25,310 bases of DNA from a bacterium (GTDB lineage: Bacteria; Spirochaetota; UBA4802; UBA5550). Shown here piece after piece: positions 931 through 19,625 of this stretch (its first letter is position 1; each line of letters begins with the position of its first letter). The DNA lies in the NCBI GenBank assembly GCA_024224995.1, contig JAAENB010000697.1, positions 1 to 25,310 of the forward strand, in the 5' to 3' direction. The notes beneath the pieces are model-generated. The model had not been told where the DNA came from. It worked only from the letters and a program-made list of their open reading frames with translations, and searched no databases. The translations under genes and the position numbers were made by a program.

Positions 931-2091
931 ATGATAAGAAATATAGTTTGTTTAATAACAATAATCTTTCTAACCCTGATTATTTCATCGTGTGATGATA
1001 AAAATATAAGAAAGGGCACTGATGTACCAGGCAAAACCGAAAAAAAAGATAGAGAAACTCCATCGCGGCGAGGGTCTGGCGCGGACCGGCAGGAGGCAAA
1101 AACAGGGCAAATAGAAAAAATAAAAAAAGAGATCCGGAAGCGGGGATTAAAATTTAAAGTAAAAAAAACAGAAGCTTTGAAATATCAGATAATTGAAATA
1201 ACCGGGTTAACAATTCCCGAAGGACTTGAAAAAGAAGCAGCAGCGCAGAACTCCAGGGCGGAAAAAGACTGGGCACTATACAAAAGAAAATATCACAAAC
1301 ACGTAAAAAGGAACCGGAGAGATAAAGAAAAAAGCAAGTTCGGGACCGATGATTTTGAACAATTCAGCGCAAGTGACAGGGATAACATCGCGACCGATAT
1401 CCACCTGAGCCCCTCACCCGCGCTCAAAGCCTTTTCCTGGGAAGACAGGAAAGTAATAACCGGGATAAAAAACCAGGGAACCTGTGGAAGCTGCTGGGCA
1501 TTTGCCGCAATGGCAGCTTTTGAAGCGAATTATATCATCAGGAATAACAAGGAGGCAGACCTTTCCGAACAGCATGTGCTTGATTGCGCGGTTGACCGGA
1601 ATGGGAGAAAGGCCGGAAGCTGTAATGGGGGATGGTATAAGGGAGTCTTTGATTATTTAAAAAAGAGAAATGCCGTATTAGAAGAAAATTTTCCCTACAG
1701 GGGAAAAGACAGCAGGTGTTTACCAACCAGGGCAGCCAGGTACCGCCTCGCGTTCTGGGGCTTTGTAAAAAATAACGCGGGAATACCTTTGGAAAGGGAG
1801 ATGAAAGAAGCCCTGTGTACCTATGGGCCCCTGACGGCGGCAGTAAAAGTAACCCCGGCATTCCAGGCTTACTCAGGAGGAGTGTTCGATGAGCATGCCC
1901 GGGTAAGAGCGGAAAGGGATGTTAATCATGCCATTGTAATCACAGGATGGGATGATTCCAAAAAGGCATATCGCATAAAAAATTCCTGGGGAAAAGGATG
2001 GGGAGAAAAAGGATACGCCTGGGTTGAATACGGATGTAATAATATCGGTTACGGAGCCGTGTGGATCGTAGCGAACAGGGAACGCCTTTAG
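931..2091 (+). CDS. Lipoprotein papain-family (C1A) cysteine protease
   Basis: Predicted cell-envelope cysteine endopeptidase. Residues 1-21 are a lipoprotein signal peptide ending in IISSC, so C21 is the likely lipidated residue. Residues 22-150 are charged and low in complexity and may act as a tether and propeptide; I see no clear ERFNIN signature. The papain fold starts near F168. It carries Q182 of the oxyanion hole, nucleophile C188 in GTCGSCWAF, the EQHVLDC and GSCNGGW motifs, H333 in VNHAIVITGW and N351 in IKNSWG, so the catalytic triad is complete. At 386 aa it is an ordinary length for a C1A precursor with an extended prosegment. Bacterial C1A enzymes are uncommon compared with eukaryotic ones. 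It follows the Cys-rich secreted protein, which makes that protein a candidate substrate or inhibitor (inference). Confidence 0.93.
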   Translation: MIRNIVCLITIIFLTLIISSCDDKNIRKGTDVPGKTEKKDRETPSRRGSGADRQEAKTGQIEKIKKEIRKRGLKFKVKKTEALKYQIIEITGLTIPEGLEKEAAAQNSRAEKDWALYKRKYHKHVKRNRRDKEKSKFGTDDFEQFSASDRDNIATDIHLSPSPALKAFSWEDRKVITGIKNQGTCGSCWAFAAMAAFEANYIIRNNKEADLSEQHVLDCAVDRNGRKAGSCNGGWYKGVFDYLKKRNAVLEENFPYRGKDSRCLPTRAARYRLAFWGFVKNNAGIPLEREMKEALCTYGPLTAAVKVTPAFQAYSGGVFDEHARVRAERDVNHAIVITGWDDSKKAYRIKNSWGKGWGEKGYAWVEYGCNNIGYGAVWIVANRERL

Positions 2092-5408: not shown

Positions 5409-5467
5409 TATGCTAGAGTAGTATGTGCATGACACAATTTAACGGGCACCATTACGGGAGTAGTTTT

Positions 5468-6496
5468 ATGAGATCTATTAAACCGGTTTTTACAATTTTA
5501 ATTATACTATTAGCTGTTGGACCGTCTCTATACGCAAAGGGCGGAAAAACGGTCAAGAGCAGGATAGCCGTAATGGAATTTAAGGCAACAGGAGTTTCGG
5601 CAGGAACAGCCAGTAAGGTTTCGGAATTGGTTCGAATTGAAGTCGTAAATACAGGCAAATATATACTCCTCGAAAGAAGCCAGATGGATAAGATATTAAA
5701 AGAGCAGGGCCTGCAGCAGGCTCTGTGTACGGATGAGGACTGCGCTGTTGAGGTTGGAAGGCTTCTTTCCACAAAAAAGATCCTTATTGGGACTGCTATG
5801 CAATTAGGAAGCGTAATGATTTTAACGGCCCGTATTGTTGATATTGAACAGGCCAGCGTGGAACGGGCGGCTAAGGTATCAGTTAAAGATGAAAGTGGAA
5901 TAAGCAGAGCTGTTGGCCGTCTTGTTGAAGAGCTCACCGGGTTAAAGCCCAAAAAGAAGACCATCAAAAAGATAACTAAAGTGGTCGATAAGAAGAATCC
6001 CCCCATGGATATGGATACCGGCGGCGGGCTTGACATGAGTGATATGAATCTTGAAAGAGCAAACCTGAGTGAGCAGGATTTAACCAGGGCCAACCTGGCC
6101 GGGGTAAACCTGGCAAAAGCGAAACTCCGAAACTCAATACTTATAAAGGCAAACATGAAAGAGGCTAATCTTAAAAAAGCCGTACTCATAGGAGCGAATC
6201 TTGAGGGGGCTAATATGGCCCGGACAAACCTTGACAGAGCGGTATTAAAAGAGGCTGTTCTTGAGGGAGCGTACCTGCAAGGAGCCAATATGTACAGAAC
6301 CAACCTTAAAAACGCCGACCTTAAAAACGCCGACCTGCGAGGCGCTAATCTTGAAGGGGCTATTTTAGTTGGCGCAGATCTTGAGGGAGCGAATTTTGAG
6401 AAAGCAGATCTTAAAAAAGCAAGAGTCAATAAAAAATGGAGAATGTTTCTCTTGAAACAAAAACCGCTAAATTATAATAGAATCATATGGAGATAG
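5468..6496 (+). CDS. Exported CsgG-like domain fused to pentapeptide repeats
   Basis: Specific function unknown. The ATG at 5468 is chosen over an in-frame one at 5423 because GGGAG lies just before it and it opens directly with a signal peptide (cleavage near LYA, residue 23). Residues 31-140 resemble the CsgG/curli-assembly-like periplasmic domain: RIAVMEFKATG, VSELVRIEVVNTGKY, LLERSQMDKILKEQGLQ, then CTDEDCAVEVGRLL and TARIVDIEQ. A Lys-rich linker follows (160-180). Residues 193 to about 318 form some 25 consecutive pentapeptide repeats of the A(N/D)LXX type, which fold as a right-handed quadrilateral beta-helix. The C-terminus is basic. CsgG-like domains often sit in outer-membrane or periplasmic complexes. 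The pairing of the two modules is unusual. An envelope scaffold is a guess. Confidence 0.85.
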   Translation: MRSIKPVFTILIILLAVGPSLYAKGGKTVKSRIAVMEFKATGVSAGTASKVSELVRIEVVNTGKYILLERSQMDKILKEQGLQQALCTDEDCAVEVGRLLSTKKILIGTAMQLGSVMILTARIVDIEQASVERAAKVSVKDESGISRAVGRLVEELTGLKPKKKTIKKITKVVDKKNPPMDMDTGGGLDMSDMNLERANLSEQDLTRANLAGVNLAKAKLRNSILIKANMKEANLKKAVLIGANLEGANMARTNLDRAVLKEAVLEGAYLQGANMYRTNLKNADLKNADLRGANLEGAILVGADLEGANFEKADLKKARVNKKWRMFLLKQKPLNYNRIIWR

Positions 6497-15489: not shown

Positions 15490-16774
15490 TTAAATTTGAG
15501 GAAGGCCCTCAAGTTTCGCTTTAAACCTGTCTACCTTCTTTGCCAGTTTAGGAGTGTTAAGCCACAGTTCAGGGTAGAGCTTTTCTTTTCCCACAACAGG
15601 ATTAACAGAACAGCGGGCCCAGTTCGCTGTCATAAGATCCATGTAGCATCGCTGGCACCGGGAACATTTTACAATATCACCAACACGGCCTTCGTTTACT
15701 TTGGCCGGCCAATAGGGGTCCGCAATAGACTGGCGGCCTAAGGAGATGATGTCGGTATCGCCCGATGATATTGCTCCGGCGGCAGTTTCAGGATTGATAA
15801 AACCAGGGGTAATTACGGGCAGCCCGCCCGATGCCTTTTTAAAACCGGGTGCCCACCGGGTAAAGTTATCTTCACCATCAGGGGCGAACGCGGCTCCCGG
15901 ATTTTCATATGAGCCCTGGGAAACATTGAAAAAGTTCGCGCCGGCGTTTTTACACCATTCCACAACTTTGATTATTTCTTCATGAGTAATCCCGCCCGGC
16001 ATAAGCTCATCTCCGGAAAGACGCACGCCAAAGGCTTTACCCGGTCCAATTTTCTTCCTGGTTTTTTCAATGATATTCAGTAAAAAACGCGCCCTGTTCT
16101 CAAGGCTGCCGCCATAGTTATCATGACGCCTGTTGGACCTGGGTGAGAGAAATGAATGAAGAAGATACCCGTGGGGTATCTCCTTCTATAACATGGAGCA
16201 GGTCCGGAGCCCGCTGCGCAAGCAGTTCTTTTATTTTTGGCAGCAGAGTATAATACTCTTCATCATCCATATTGCGCAGCACATCAAAATCGGAAAACAT
16301 CTCCGCTATTTCAGGAGCCAGGCGGCGAACCTGTTTTTCCCAGCCTTTGTTTAATGTTCTCAGGTCAACTTCAAGCGGTATTGCCGACGCGCCGCCTGCG
16401 GGACAATCGGATGATTCAGCATGAGGATGTCCCTGCCATCCCCACCCGGGACTCAATTGCATAAAAATTTTACATTTATTATATTCGTGAATGAGATCGG
16501 TCAATTCACTGTGATAGCGATAGTGCCGGTTGTCGGTAAAGAGTGAGGGGTTTAATGATTCCGATCCCTGCCAGCGGTGGGGATTCATAACAGTACATTC
16601 TGTTATAAGAAGTCCAAACCCTCCCCGCGCCCGCATCGCGTACCACGCGGTATTTTGATCACTATGATATCCATTAGGGCCGGTATACCCCATATTCATC
16701 GGAGCCATTGCGATCCTGTTTTTTAAAGTGATCTCACCAATTTCGATTGTTTCAAATAATGTTTCGTAATTCAT
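15490..16774 (-). pseudogene. Old Yellow Enzyme / 2,4-dienoyl-CoA reductase-type oxidoreductase with frameshift
   Basis: FMN-dependent OYE-family reductase split into two frames. The 5' part (16774 to about 16175) starts MNYETLFETIEIGEITLKN, with KNRIAMAPMNMGY and a good ribosome site (AAAGGAG). The 3' part holds HGYLLHSFLSPRSNRRHDNY, GGSLENRARFLLNIIE, FGVRLSGDEL, ISLGRQSIADP and an Fe-S type CSRCQRC with a later C. The HGYLLH codons lie in a different frame from the upstream ORF. Removing one G from the GGGG at 16173-16176 would join the frames. The total length (1285 bases) is one more than a multiple of three, as expected for a single inserted base. The segment before the shift, from EIAEMFSDF to LLHVIEGD, does not match the usual family sequence. 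There is no C-terminal FAD domain. Confidence 0.8.
16163..16181. repeat. Perfect dyad at the frameshift point
   Basis: AGATACCC (16163-16170) and GGGTATCT (16174-16181) are exact inverse complements around GTG. Outside them GAAG and CTTC also pair across one mismatch. The dyad covers the GGGG run where the oxidoreductase frame is broken. Quasi-palindromes are known sites of templated replication errors. Confidence 0.6.
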
Positions 16775-16801
16775 TGTTGTCTCCTTTAATTAATATGCCG
16801 A

Positions 16802-17509
16802 TTATGTTCGAGCCAGACGGATCAATTCACCAATAGATTTAATCTTCTGTTCCTTCGTATTAAAAGGAAACCCGCTTTTATATTTTCGAAAATTAGTTTT
16901 AAAAGAAAAATCCGCCCGGGATAATTTTTTTTCCCCCTTAACCATTTTACAATACAGCTTGCCTGCTGATTCCTGGTTGTTGATTCCCGCTGCTGATGCA
17001 GCCGCAGCGATTTTTCCGGTAGCAAGTCCACCGGAAATCCCTTCACCAAGAAATTTAGTAAAACCGCCCGCGTCTCCGGCAAGGAGAACCCGGCCTGTTC
17101 CAAGATGGAACATGTTTTTCCGCGCGGGCATGGACCACATGCATCCGTCTTTACGAACCATGTTTTCTATTTTGAGATTATGCTTTTGTTTTAACAAATC
17201 GAGAAAATTATCCCGCTCCTCCGAATGGTTCATGCCCCGGGCGGCATTGGTATCGACAATAACATTTCCATTTTTCCAATACGCGGCAGCACCTAACATA
17301 ATGCATGAACCTATTTGGTATGTATCGGCGCATTCACGGGTTCCAAGCTTTTCTGTCCTGGTACGGCAGGGACAGGGAACCAGGGCCAGGTGTTCACTGG
17401 TGTGATTAAGGATATAATCATGCGCTTCTTCAGATGCCAGCACTTCCTGGTTCGCTTCTATAGCTGTTTCTACGGGAATTACCCGCGCCCCTGATTCTAA
17501 GCACTTACT
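16802..17509 (-). pseudogene. Truncated 4Fe-4S protein fused to C-terminal half of a FAD reductase
   Basis: The open frame runs from an upstream stop at 17510-17512. The only start codon is GTG at 17443, which has no properly spaced ribosome site, yet protein-like sequence (GARVIPVETAIEANQ) continues upstream of it to about 17500. The N-terminus is therefore missing. The first part carries HLALVPCPCRTRTEKLG and further Cys (C-X1-C, then ECADTYQIGSC), as in the C-terminal part of a family of 4Fe-4S ferredoxin-like proteins. At about GAAAYWKNG (near 17286) it changes to the C-terminal half of a geranylgeranyl-reductase-type flavoprotein: VRKDGCMWSMPA, GRVLLAGDAGGFTKFLGEGISGG. The FAD-binding Rossmann N-terminus is absent. 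A large deletion joining two genes is the simplest reading. A real mini-fusion is possible but would lack the FAD dinucleotide site. Confidence 0.65.
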
Positions 17510-17530
17510 TTATTTTATTTATTAAAACTC

Positions 17531-17576
17531 TTTACATTTTTCTTACATTCAACGATTAATACATAGACTTTTGTAT
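17531..17576 (+). promoter_or_regulatory. Candidate promoter and operator of the triple regulator
   Basis: TTTACA (17531-17536) is followed after 18 bases by ATTAAT (17555-17560). ATACA (17559-17563) and TGTAT (17572-17576) form an 18-base dyad with a poorly symmetric centre, overlapping the -10 region, about the size of a TetR-type operator. It sits in the 89-base gap between the decayed minus-strand operon and the regulator, a place suited to autoregulation. Confidence 0.35.
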
Positions 17577-17598
17577 AAAACAGACAGGGACATCAACA

Positions 17599-19116
17599 AT
17601 GACCAGCAGTGCCAAACATTTAAAAATCTCCGAACTTTCGGCTCTCACCGGTATATCGATACCCACAATACGGTTCTATATTAAAGAAGGACTTATGCCG
17701 GAACCAATCAAAACAAGCAAAACAATGGCATATTACACCCAGGATCATGTGGACCTGCTTGAAGAAATCAAAACATTAAAAGAGCAGGAATCCCTGTCGA
17801 TTAAAGATATCAAAAGCAGGCTTAAAAACCGTATTAAACCGGCAAAAAAGGCCAAACCGGAAACACTGCACACGAACCAGCGGGAAGATATTCTCAATTC
17901 AGCTACGCACCTTTTTAGAGAGCACGGGTATGAAACCACGAGTATTACGGATATCGTTGAGCATTCCGGAATTGGCAGAGGGACCTTTTATACGTACTTT
18001 AAAAATAAAGAAGAACTTTTTCTTGAATGTTCCGACAGAGTGTTCCTGGAAATCGATAAAGGATTTAGTAAAATAACAGAAGAGAAAAATATTGAGTTAA
18101 AATTAATTAAAAGAGGACTCTTTTTCTTTCAGCGGTTTCGCCGGATAATAGACATGATGAACCAGGTTCGAGGTTCTTCATGGGGCTCTAAAAAGGTCTA
18201 CAATAAAAAATTTAAACAGATACTCAACAATCTTTTGGATCCAATCATAAAAGATATTTCAGAGGGTATTGACAATGGAATATTTCGAGATATTGACCCT
18301 TCACTGGGTGCCCATATTATGGTTGGCCTTGCAGACTATTGTTCGTTTTTATATCGATATGGAGACCTGCTTAAAAGTTCAATATCTCAGGATGAAACTG
18401 AAACCTTTGTTCAATATCTCTTAAGCTTTGTTTTCAACGGCATCAATAATAGTATTACCTTAGAAAAAGAACTGAGCTCAAAGATAAGAGATTTTCATAA
18501 GGAAACCAGATTTTCTTCAATAATTATTGAAGAGAAAAGTGAAGAGGATAAGAGGTTAAGGCAGATAAAAGTCGCGGCAATCAATCTTTTTAAACACAAT
18601 GGATACAACAATACCTCGGTTTCCGATATTGTGGAAAAAGCGAAAGTTGGAAAAGGTACATTCTACGAATATTTTCCCAACAAAGAAGAGCTGTTCATCC
18701 AATGTGTTGATATGATCTTCTATTCAATTTATACCGATGTCCATGAACCCATTAGAAATGAAACCGATATAATCAAACGTTTGCGAAAACGCGTGTTTTA
18801 TTTTATTGAATCCTACCCCAAATGGATCGATATTATGAACATCATCAGGGGCGGCTTTGTGGGCGCAAACTCTAACTTAACTGAAAAATTATCGGACGTA
18901 TTAAAAAAGATTACCAATAATATTGCCGAAGATATTAGCACAGCCATTGACAATGGAATTATGCCGCCTGTTAATATTACTATAGCCTCGTATATAATTA
19001 TGGGCGCGGCTGAGTATAGCGCGTATCTCTATCATACCGGCAGTTATGACCCGGAATTGTTTATAGATTCTTTAATGGATATATTGATCAATGGTCTTAA
19101 AGGAGCAGAAATATGA
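17599..19116 (+). CDS. MerR-TetR-TetR three-headed transcriptional regulator
   Basis: A 505-aa protein with three DNA-binding modules in one chain. Residues 8-75 form a MerR-type winged helix (KISELSALTGISIPTIRFYI, then YYTQDHVDLLEEIKTLKEQ with helix to 78). Residues 96-285 form one complete TetR unit with HTH TTSITDIVEHSGIGRGTFYT and YFKNKEELF. Residues 320-500 form a second with NTSVSDIVEKAKVGKGTFYE and YFPNKEELF. Each TetR unit carries its own ligand-binding-type helical domain (paired motifs: DMMNQVRG and DIMNIIRGG; SEGIDNGIF and STAIDNGIM), so the second arose by tandem duplication. Lys-rich and charged linkers separate the modules. TetR proteins normally dimerise, so a single chain could act as a pseudo-dimer. 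It diverges from the damaged redox operon and overlaps the next start by four bases. Likely target genes are these neighbours (inference). Confidence 0.9.
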   Translation: MTSSAKHLKISELSALTGISIPTIRFYIKEGLMPEPIKTSKTMAYYTQDHVDLLEEIKTLKEQESLSIKDIKSRLKNRIKPAKKAKPETLHTNQREDILNSATHLFREHGYETTSITDIVEHSGIGRGTFYTYFKNKEELFLECSDRVFLEIDKGFSKITEEKNIELKLIKRGLFFFQRFRRIIDMMNQVRGSSWGSKKVYNKKFKQILNNLLDPIIKDISEGIDNGIFRDIDPSLGAHIMVGLADYCSFLYRYGDLLKSSISQDETETFVQYLLSFVFNGINNSITLEKELSSKIRDFHKETRFSSIIIEEKSEEDKRLRQIKVAAINLFKHNGYNNTSVSDIVEKAKVGKGTFYEYFPNKEELFIQCVDMIFYSIYTDVHEPIRNETDIIKRLRKRVFYFIESYPKWIDIMNIIRGGFVGANSNLTEKLSDVLKKITNNIAEDISTAIDNGIMPPVNITIASYIIMGAAEYSAYLYHTGSYDPELFIDSLMDILINGLKGAEI

Positions 19117-19625
19117 TTATATATTGCTTGCGAGTAATTATCGGTTTAATAGAAGTGTTGATAAAACCGGGACGGTTGGAGCCCTTAGAGACTTCTATTA
19201 TTAAACGATGGGTTTTATTAAGTGACTGTGACTTTAACCTGCACTTAAATAATGGGAAGGTGCAAACCAGTATGGATTATGGCCGCAATGACCTGCTAAT
19301 ACGCGCGGGGCTGGTCAAGCATGTCATCAAGGAAAAATGGAGACCCATGGTGGGATCTTCTATCATCACCTATAAAAAATCTCTGGCTCTTTATAGTTTA
19401 TATGAACTTCATACAAAAATCAAATGCTGGGATGAAAAATGGGTCTATTTGGAACAATCAATTTATCATAAAGGTGCACTGGCTGCACAGGCCTATATTA
19501 AGGCTCTGCTGCGAGGCCCTAACGGGAATGTCCCTCCTGCGGAATTAATAAAAAAGCTTGGCATTGAAATTGACTCTCCTCCGATTCCGGAAGCTATTAT
19601 ACAATGGAATAAAGTGGTACAATGA
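19113..19625 (+). CDS. Hotdog-fold thioesterase-like protein (Them6/4HBT type)
   Basis: Predicted acyl-CoA thioesterase of the hotdog fold, 170 aa. The N-terminus is a hydrophobic segment (residues 2-17), possibly a membrane anchor. The core has SDCDFNLHLNNGKVQTSMDYGR (residues 37-58), the D-x-N-x-H-x-N-N motif of the 4HBT group with D40 and H44, then KWRPMVGSSIITYKKSL, KCWDEKWVYLEQSI and LLRGPNGNVPPAE. This pattern fits Them6-like proteins, whose substrates are poorly defined. The ATG overlaps the stop of the triple regulator (ATGA), so the two are translationally coupled. A regulator joined to an acyl-CoA hydrolase suggests control by an acyl-CoA or lipid-like ligand, which is inference. 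Confidence 0.82.
   Translation: MIIYCLRVIIGLIEVLIKPGRLEPLETSIIKRWVLLSDCDFNLHLNNGKVQTSMDYGRNDLLIRAGLVKHVIKEKWRPMVGSSIITYKKSLALYSLYELHTKIKCWDEKWVYLEQSIYHKGALAAQAYIKALLRGPNGNVPPAELIKKLGIEIDSPPIPEAIIQWNKVVQ

Follow-up and report, generated by a model that had tools for sequence, protein, structure and literature searches.

The window, a stretch of 25,310 nucleotides (contig JAAENB010000697.1 of the Spirochaetota assembly GCA_024224995.1), encodes a 505-amino-acid regulator in which one MerR head is followed by two TetR modules. Our best reading, to which we assign a probability of roughly 0.6, is that this chain arose from two fused partner regulators and works as a single-chain heterodimer without the internal MerR head. 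The parts of the regulator are as follows:

17599..19116, + strand: MerR-TetR-TetR regulator, intact, 505 amino acids
17623..17826, + strand: MerR winged helix-turn-helix (HTH) head, residues 9-76
17872..18453, + strand: TetR module 1 (copy A), residues 92-285; TetR_N and module match at 92-271
18454..18549, + strand: linker, residues 286-317
18550..19104, + strand: TetR module 2 (copy B side), residues 318-502; best TetR_N stretch 326-368, module match at 321-501

The first-pass annotation had described a MerR HTH ahead of two complete TetR units, and both the content and the coordinates of that description are borne out by Pfam and by module hidden Markov models (HMMs), the latter built in this analysis from single-module relatives. 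Pfam places MerR_1 at residues 9-76, where 65.9 bits compare with a cut-off of 21.6. TetR_N matches in two stretches, the better of them at 326-368, and the protein as a whole scores 120.9 bits with this model, whose cut-off is 24. The module HMMs score 105.8 bits for MerR (4-77), 196.8 for the first TetR module (92-271) and 212.9 for the second (321-501). Since the 5th, 50th and 95th percentiles among single-module proteins are 89, 112 and 124 bits for MerR and 212, 258 and 277 bits for TetR, the MerR head is ordinary, while TetR module 1 falls under the 5th percentile and TetR module 2 lies at it. As had also been claimed, the two TetR units are related along their whole length, with 35% identity over 186 aligned residues (E 3e-42). 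Their recognition segments are alike (GIGRGTFYTYF and KVGKGTFYEYF), and each has an all-helical C-terminal ligand and dimerisation domain.

A frameshift or an assembly join of separate genes would undo this picture, but is unlikely because the frame is continuous from the ATG to the TGA (17599-19116, +) and because 12 other proteins have the MerR-TetR-TetR order. Nor does one head appear to be dead: all three are detected, and no obvious HTH loss was seen in any of them. The wider possibility that the chain is an artefact of assembly or sequencing, or a decaying gene within a decaying cluster, can point to the divergent neighbours, which lie in pieces, and to the low score of TetR module 1; set against the unbroken frame, the three detected heads and the recurrence of the architecture, we consider it very improbable.

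To place the regulator in a family, two protein searches were made, both word-based with about 8000 candidates scored, such that the architecture counts below are not prevalences. The first compared the window protein with 5.8 billion clustered proteins, with subjects of at least 0.55 times the query length, and gave 106 matches including the query itself; the second used a profile from eight long members, and the best 120 of its 201 matches were taken. HMMs were then used to classify 220 sequences, namely 214 proteins (window protein included) and six genes from three genomes. The commonest form is MerR-TetR (139 of 220; 133 database proteins and the six genes), the two-domain fusion mentioned in the first-pass annotation. 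Four-headed chains, MerR-TetR-MerR-TetR, make up 61 of the 220 (526-617 amino acids; P0003-P0007 and most of P0107-P0171) and are more numerous than the three-headed MerR-TetR-TetR chains, of which there are 13 (456-517 amino acids). The window protein is one of these and the architecture is therefore not a one-off. Seven partial architectures, six TetR-MerR-TetR and one MerR-TetR-MerR, were possibly cut by contig ends. Source names across the family include Smithella sp., Syntrophales, Desulfomonilia, Deltaproteobacteria, Bacteroidales and Spirochaetes, with Smithella and Desulfomonilia among those of the four-headed chains. The closest relative, P0002, is 42% identical to the window protein over 87% of the query, and a scan of genome contigs with P0001 gave 23 loci, at 22-53% identity in the best segment, eight of which were carried forward. 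Separately, a contig of 4776945 bases seems to carry one four-headed and one single A-type MerR-TetR protein (P0163 and P0099), the shared contig being deduced from equal length and sources.

The two halves of the chain also exist as adjacent genes. A sample of 392 genomes was drawn evenly from a larger group in the phylum of a Spirochaetaceae genome, with three candidates scored per genome, so that weaker or further copies may be missed; matches at E <= 1e-20 were present in three of the 392, the query halves falling in every case on two neighbouring genes. The same three genomes (G150, G049 and G078) were recovered from a class of 46 genomes with up to 33 candidates scored in each. All three loci hold two MerR-TetR genes in tandem, overlapping or almost touching:

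L039, 6363-7217 and 7217-8074: MerR-TetR gene pair
L038, 7004-7921 and 6159-7001, - strand: MerR-TetR gene pair
L040, 6343-7380 and 7293-8213: MerR-TetR gene pair

At each locus the pair is divergent from genes for a thiolase-like protein, its OB-fold (oligonucleotide/oligosaccharide-binding fold) partner, an enoyl-CoA hydratase and an acyl-CoA dehydrogenase. L039 and L040 also have an acyl-CoA ligase gene; the sequence of L038 stops before that point. These names come from Pfam on the L039 copies and, for L038 and L040, from likeness judged by eye.

Between the pair regulators and the divergent operon, the three genomes share an ungapped element of 72 bp. In it, 44 of 72 columns are identical in all three, compared with 39 of 116 in the remaining aligned intergenic region (Fisher p 2.8e-4, an indicative value, as the borders were chosen after looking). 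The following matches to a 51-bp pattern lie inside it:

L038, 8082-8132: 51-bp pattern match
L039, 6020-6070: 51-bp pattern match
L040, 6188-6238: 51-bp pattern match

The pattern of the element matches 9 of 43 loci, all of them overlapping copies of the three pair loci. Its outer blocks are inverted and face each other; in G150 and G078, TTGAC and GTCAA start at a distance of 67 nt. G150 has a perfect 16-bp inverted repeat that none of 500 shuffles equalled. In each of G150, G049 and G078 the left block matches perfectly exactly once, at the divergent promoter, and has no site at one or two mismatches. At up to three mismatches, its matches and those of a reversed-pattern control number 5 versus 10 in G150, 10 versus 2 in G049 and 5 versus 2 in G078; the ten sites of G049 lie at several places and are possible further targets. 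The element also contains promoter-like boxes, with a spacer of 16-17 by eye between TTGACG and a -10-like box, so part of the conservation may reflect the promoter rather than an operator. MerR proteins act in promoters with a spacer of 19-20 bp. The arrangement suggests that the pair regulators act locally, as an autoregulated repressor whose composite site is long; the 72-bp element is the candidate operator.

How the two TetR modules of the window protein relate to these gene pairs was addressed with trees. A careful tree was made of 80 TetR modules, taken from all 13 three-headed proteins, 13 of the 61 four-headed proteins, 22 of the 133 single proteins (dereplicated) and the six pair genes. 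First copies and upstream pair genes (PA) stand opposite second copies and downstream pair genes (PB) with support 98/92, as fits one old A/B duplication. TetR module 1 of the window protein lies on the copy-A side of this split, on a long branch, and TetR module 2 on the copy-B side. A private TetR duplication in the lineage of the window protein was considered and is disfavoured (approximately unbiased test, p-AU 0.018, for a group that was named after inspection of the tree and whose rows are long). In a quicker FastTree run on all 287 modules, the single-module proteins divide into 67 A, 40 B and 26 that are neither. Seven pairs of single proteins come from contigs of equal length; six are A+B, and one, P0030/P0205, is A+A and is without a common source. 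All four pairs that also have overlapping sources are A+B, the common contig again being deduced.

The three-headed proteins occupy at least three places in the tree: the window protein with P0002, a group of nine that includes P0012 and P0170, and P0173 with P0175, the last two nested among four-headed proteins. The starred branches require at least three label changes for copy 1 and at least four for copy 2. Moreover, in P0175 the linker still looks like the beginning of a MerR head: its profile E is 5e-7 (search space of one) and none of 200 shuffles was as similar. We take this as a trace of a lost MerR. The linkers of the other 12 three-headed proteins give nothing as clear: P0167 was equalled by 16 of 200 shuffles, P0173 by 39 of 200 (profile E 0.0033), and the window linker, which has no detectable MerR remnant, by 103 of 200. 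On these sequence grounds, the internal MerR appears to have been lost more than once across the family. In the lineage of the window protein, fusion and MerR loss could have come about together, through one deletion that began at the end of gene A and reached into gene B.

The suggestion in the first-pass annotation that the chain might bind as a built-in dimer has a precedent, because Mce3R is a solved natural double-TetR repressor. According to PMC11667970, Mce3R has two unlike TetR modules per chain, which form an intrachain four-helix bundle, and belongs to a lipid-metabolism context. An AlphaFold model of one chain of the window protein has a predicted template modelling score (pTM) of 0.72, and its best structural match across both TetR modules is Mce3R (PDB 9b7y; root-mean-square deviation 7.4, 11% identity in the structural alignment). 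The built-in dimer is probable, with the packing itself predicted by models. The interpretation in the first-pass annotation is supported in part, its further ideas of bridged operators and two ligands being possibilities.

Alternatively, two chains could assemble symmetrically, TetR1 on TetR1 and TetR2 on TetR2, to give two DNA-binding units, two ligand pockets and two MerR heads, an assembly that could bridge two operators. Such an arrangement was weighed for Mce3R (PMC11667970); the poorly ordered linker in the model (predicted local distance difference test below 50 at 289-313) could allow it, and the inverted outer blocks of the relatives' element are compatible with bridging. Nevertheless, the one-chain model matches Mce3R over both modules, Mce3R itself was shown to use the asymmetric fold, according to that paper, and the A/B gene pairs of the relatives point to contacts between A and B. 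We regard the symmetric assembly as unlikely. An asymmetric single-chain unit might, on the other hand, dimerise additionally through another surface and loop the DNA between two copies of the operator. In the description of Mce3R, single-chain units pair into a homodimer that sits on two DNA duplexes, and its authors suggest looping; the relatives' 72-bp footprint has two outer blocks; however, the window is without that element and the second interface is a supposition. This addition to the single-chain heterodimer is conceivable, at somewhat less than even odds.

A further question concerns the MerR head. MerR proteins normally have a long dimerisation helix after the HTH and an effector-binding C-terminus. 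In the model of the window protein, no separate MerR dimerisation helix follows the head, and the next helix (87-109) is predicted to be part of TetR module 1; compared with the MerR regulators CadR, PbrR691 and CueR, the TetR modules replace the dimerisation helix and effector domain. The MerR part could hence be a leftover or a protein-contact domain, with DNA bound by the TetR pair only. The repeated loss of the internal MerR, which must be dispensable in those lineages, and the missing helix favour this view, which is opposed by the normal score of the window's MerR head and by the retention of the first MerR in the three-headed (13) and four-headed (61) proteins, a retention that follows from how the classes were built and for which only part of the head was found in P0148. 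We consider a MerR head that does not bind DNA rather doubtful.

In the fusion scheme that we prefer, the ancestor would have had neighbouring genes A and B, each encoding a MerR-TetR protein. A and B would have fused and the MerR head of B would have been removed, in an order that we infer, leaving MerR-TetR(A)-TetR(B). Within the chain, TetR(A) and TetR(B) most likely pack together by means of the four-helix bundle typical of TetR proteins, as is the case for Mce3R. A single chain would then already be the "dimer", its two TetR heads differing from each other and its lone MerR head standing on just one side. The regulator is probably an autoregulated local repressor at the divergent promoter in 17444-17598, where it would occupy a lopsided site, and an acyl-CoA-type or related metabolite in the TetR pocket may release it from DNA.

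Several observations count against this scheme. The modules of the window protein and of P0002 stand on long branches (0.93 and 0.72 for those of the window protein), their second copies have no firm position inside the B clade of the careful tree, and none of the four falls within the A or B clade drawn in the FastTree run. The route to three heads in this lineage is therefore unsure. The four A+B pairs out of four are only modest evidence when the singles comprise 67 A and 40 B, with 26 unplaced. With regard to structure, the deviation of 7.4 from Mce3R is large, meaning that the packing angle in the model may differ or be wrong, and the intrachain packing is drawn from a one-chain model, so that TetR contacts between chains are possible. 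Finally, the relatives' 72-bp element gives 10 matches in the window at up to three mismatches, with 7.23 expected, and none in 17444-17598, and the window's divergent neighbours are broken. The right-hand block of the element has no match in the window.

The surroundings of the regulator are as follows:

17444..17598, no strand: divergent intergenic region, presumed operator site
19113..19625, + strand: 4HBT_2 thioesterase-like gene (Pfam 4HBT_2, E 2.5e-15)
15490..17443, - strand: divergent genes, presumed target operon, in pieces
16802-17443, - strand: geranylgeranyl-reductase-like fragment, no Pfam match
16121-16774, - strand: old-yellow-enzyme gene, N-terminal piece
15490-16026, - strand: old-yellow-enzyme gene, C-terminal piece

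The start of the 4HBT_2 gene overlaps the stop of the regulator (ATGA), and the two are probably co-transcribed. On the divergent side, the middle of the split old-yellow-enzyme gene was not found. The broken state of these genes reflects either decay of the target cluster or an assembly error at that place; the regulator frame is whole. The best palindrome upstream of the regulator, TTAATACA-n8-TGTATAAA, was rejected, as it was equalled by 59 of 100 shuffles. Elsewhere in the window, inspection by eye gave a lipoprotein-like secreted protein with a papain-like cysteine protease motif (QGTCGSCWAFAA) at 931-2091 (+), and a CsgG-like N-terminus followed by pentapeptide repeats at 5423-6496 (+). 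A histidine kinase gene has matches of at most 52% identity in the class of G150, and a KBL-like gene has a match at E <= 1e-80 in 1 of 149 genomes, at 57%.

Among known systems, members of the TetR family pair two single-module chains into a homodimer, whereas the window chain holds two modules. It shares this, and a lipid-metabolism context, with Mce3R, and the model predicts a matching intrachain arrangement; it differs in the MerR head at 9-76, none being described for Mce3R in the portion of PMC11667970 available. A nonpalindromic operator is a Mce3R-like trait, and the window intergenic region has no significant palindrome. The paper cites 204 predicted double-TetR proteins in Actinomycetes and confines Mce3R orthologues to a subset of pathogenic mycobacteria. 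Two linker-joined TetR units also fold within one chain in engineered single-chain Tet transregulators (PMC1797012); unlike the window protein, these are synthetic, with two Tet repressor units and no MerR. The best NCBIfam model for the window protein is FadR (NF053878), at 99.7 bits and under the cut-off of 200. The FadR/TetR-type fatty acid regulators of Bacillus (PDB 3whb, 5gp9) resemble it in their TetR modules but have one such module per chain. No description of MerR-TetR or MerR-TetR-TetR proteins was found in titles and abstract starts of the openly licensed literature, which is weak evidence of absence. What sets the present family apart from the known systems is its MerR head, its different lineages and the series from gene pair through four heads to three.

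Taken together, one family displays forms that resemble steps: separate partner genes, a four-headed fusion and a three-headed chain. A broader generalisation, which we offer tentatively and at less than even odds, is that in syntrophic and related anaerobes the A and B proteins of this MerR-TetR family would be obligate heterodimers that fused into four-headed chains and repeatedly shed exactly the second MerR, the resulting three-headed repressors reading a composite operator (a MerR half-site and two unlike TetR half-sites) and tying both divergent promoters together. The family makes it possible to test how a symmetric repressor turns asymmetric, whether a mirror-like operator becomes lopsided once a head is lost, and whether MerR can function without a dimerisation helix of its own. 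Gene-circuit design may also gain natural single-chain asymmetric repressors from it.
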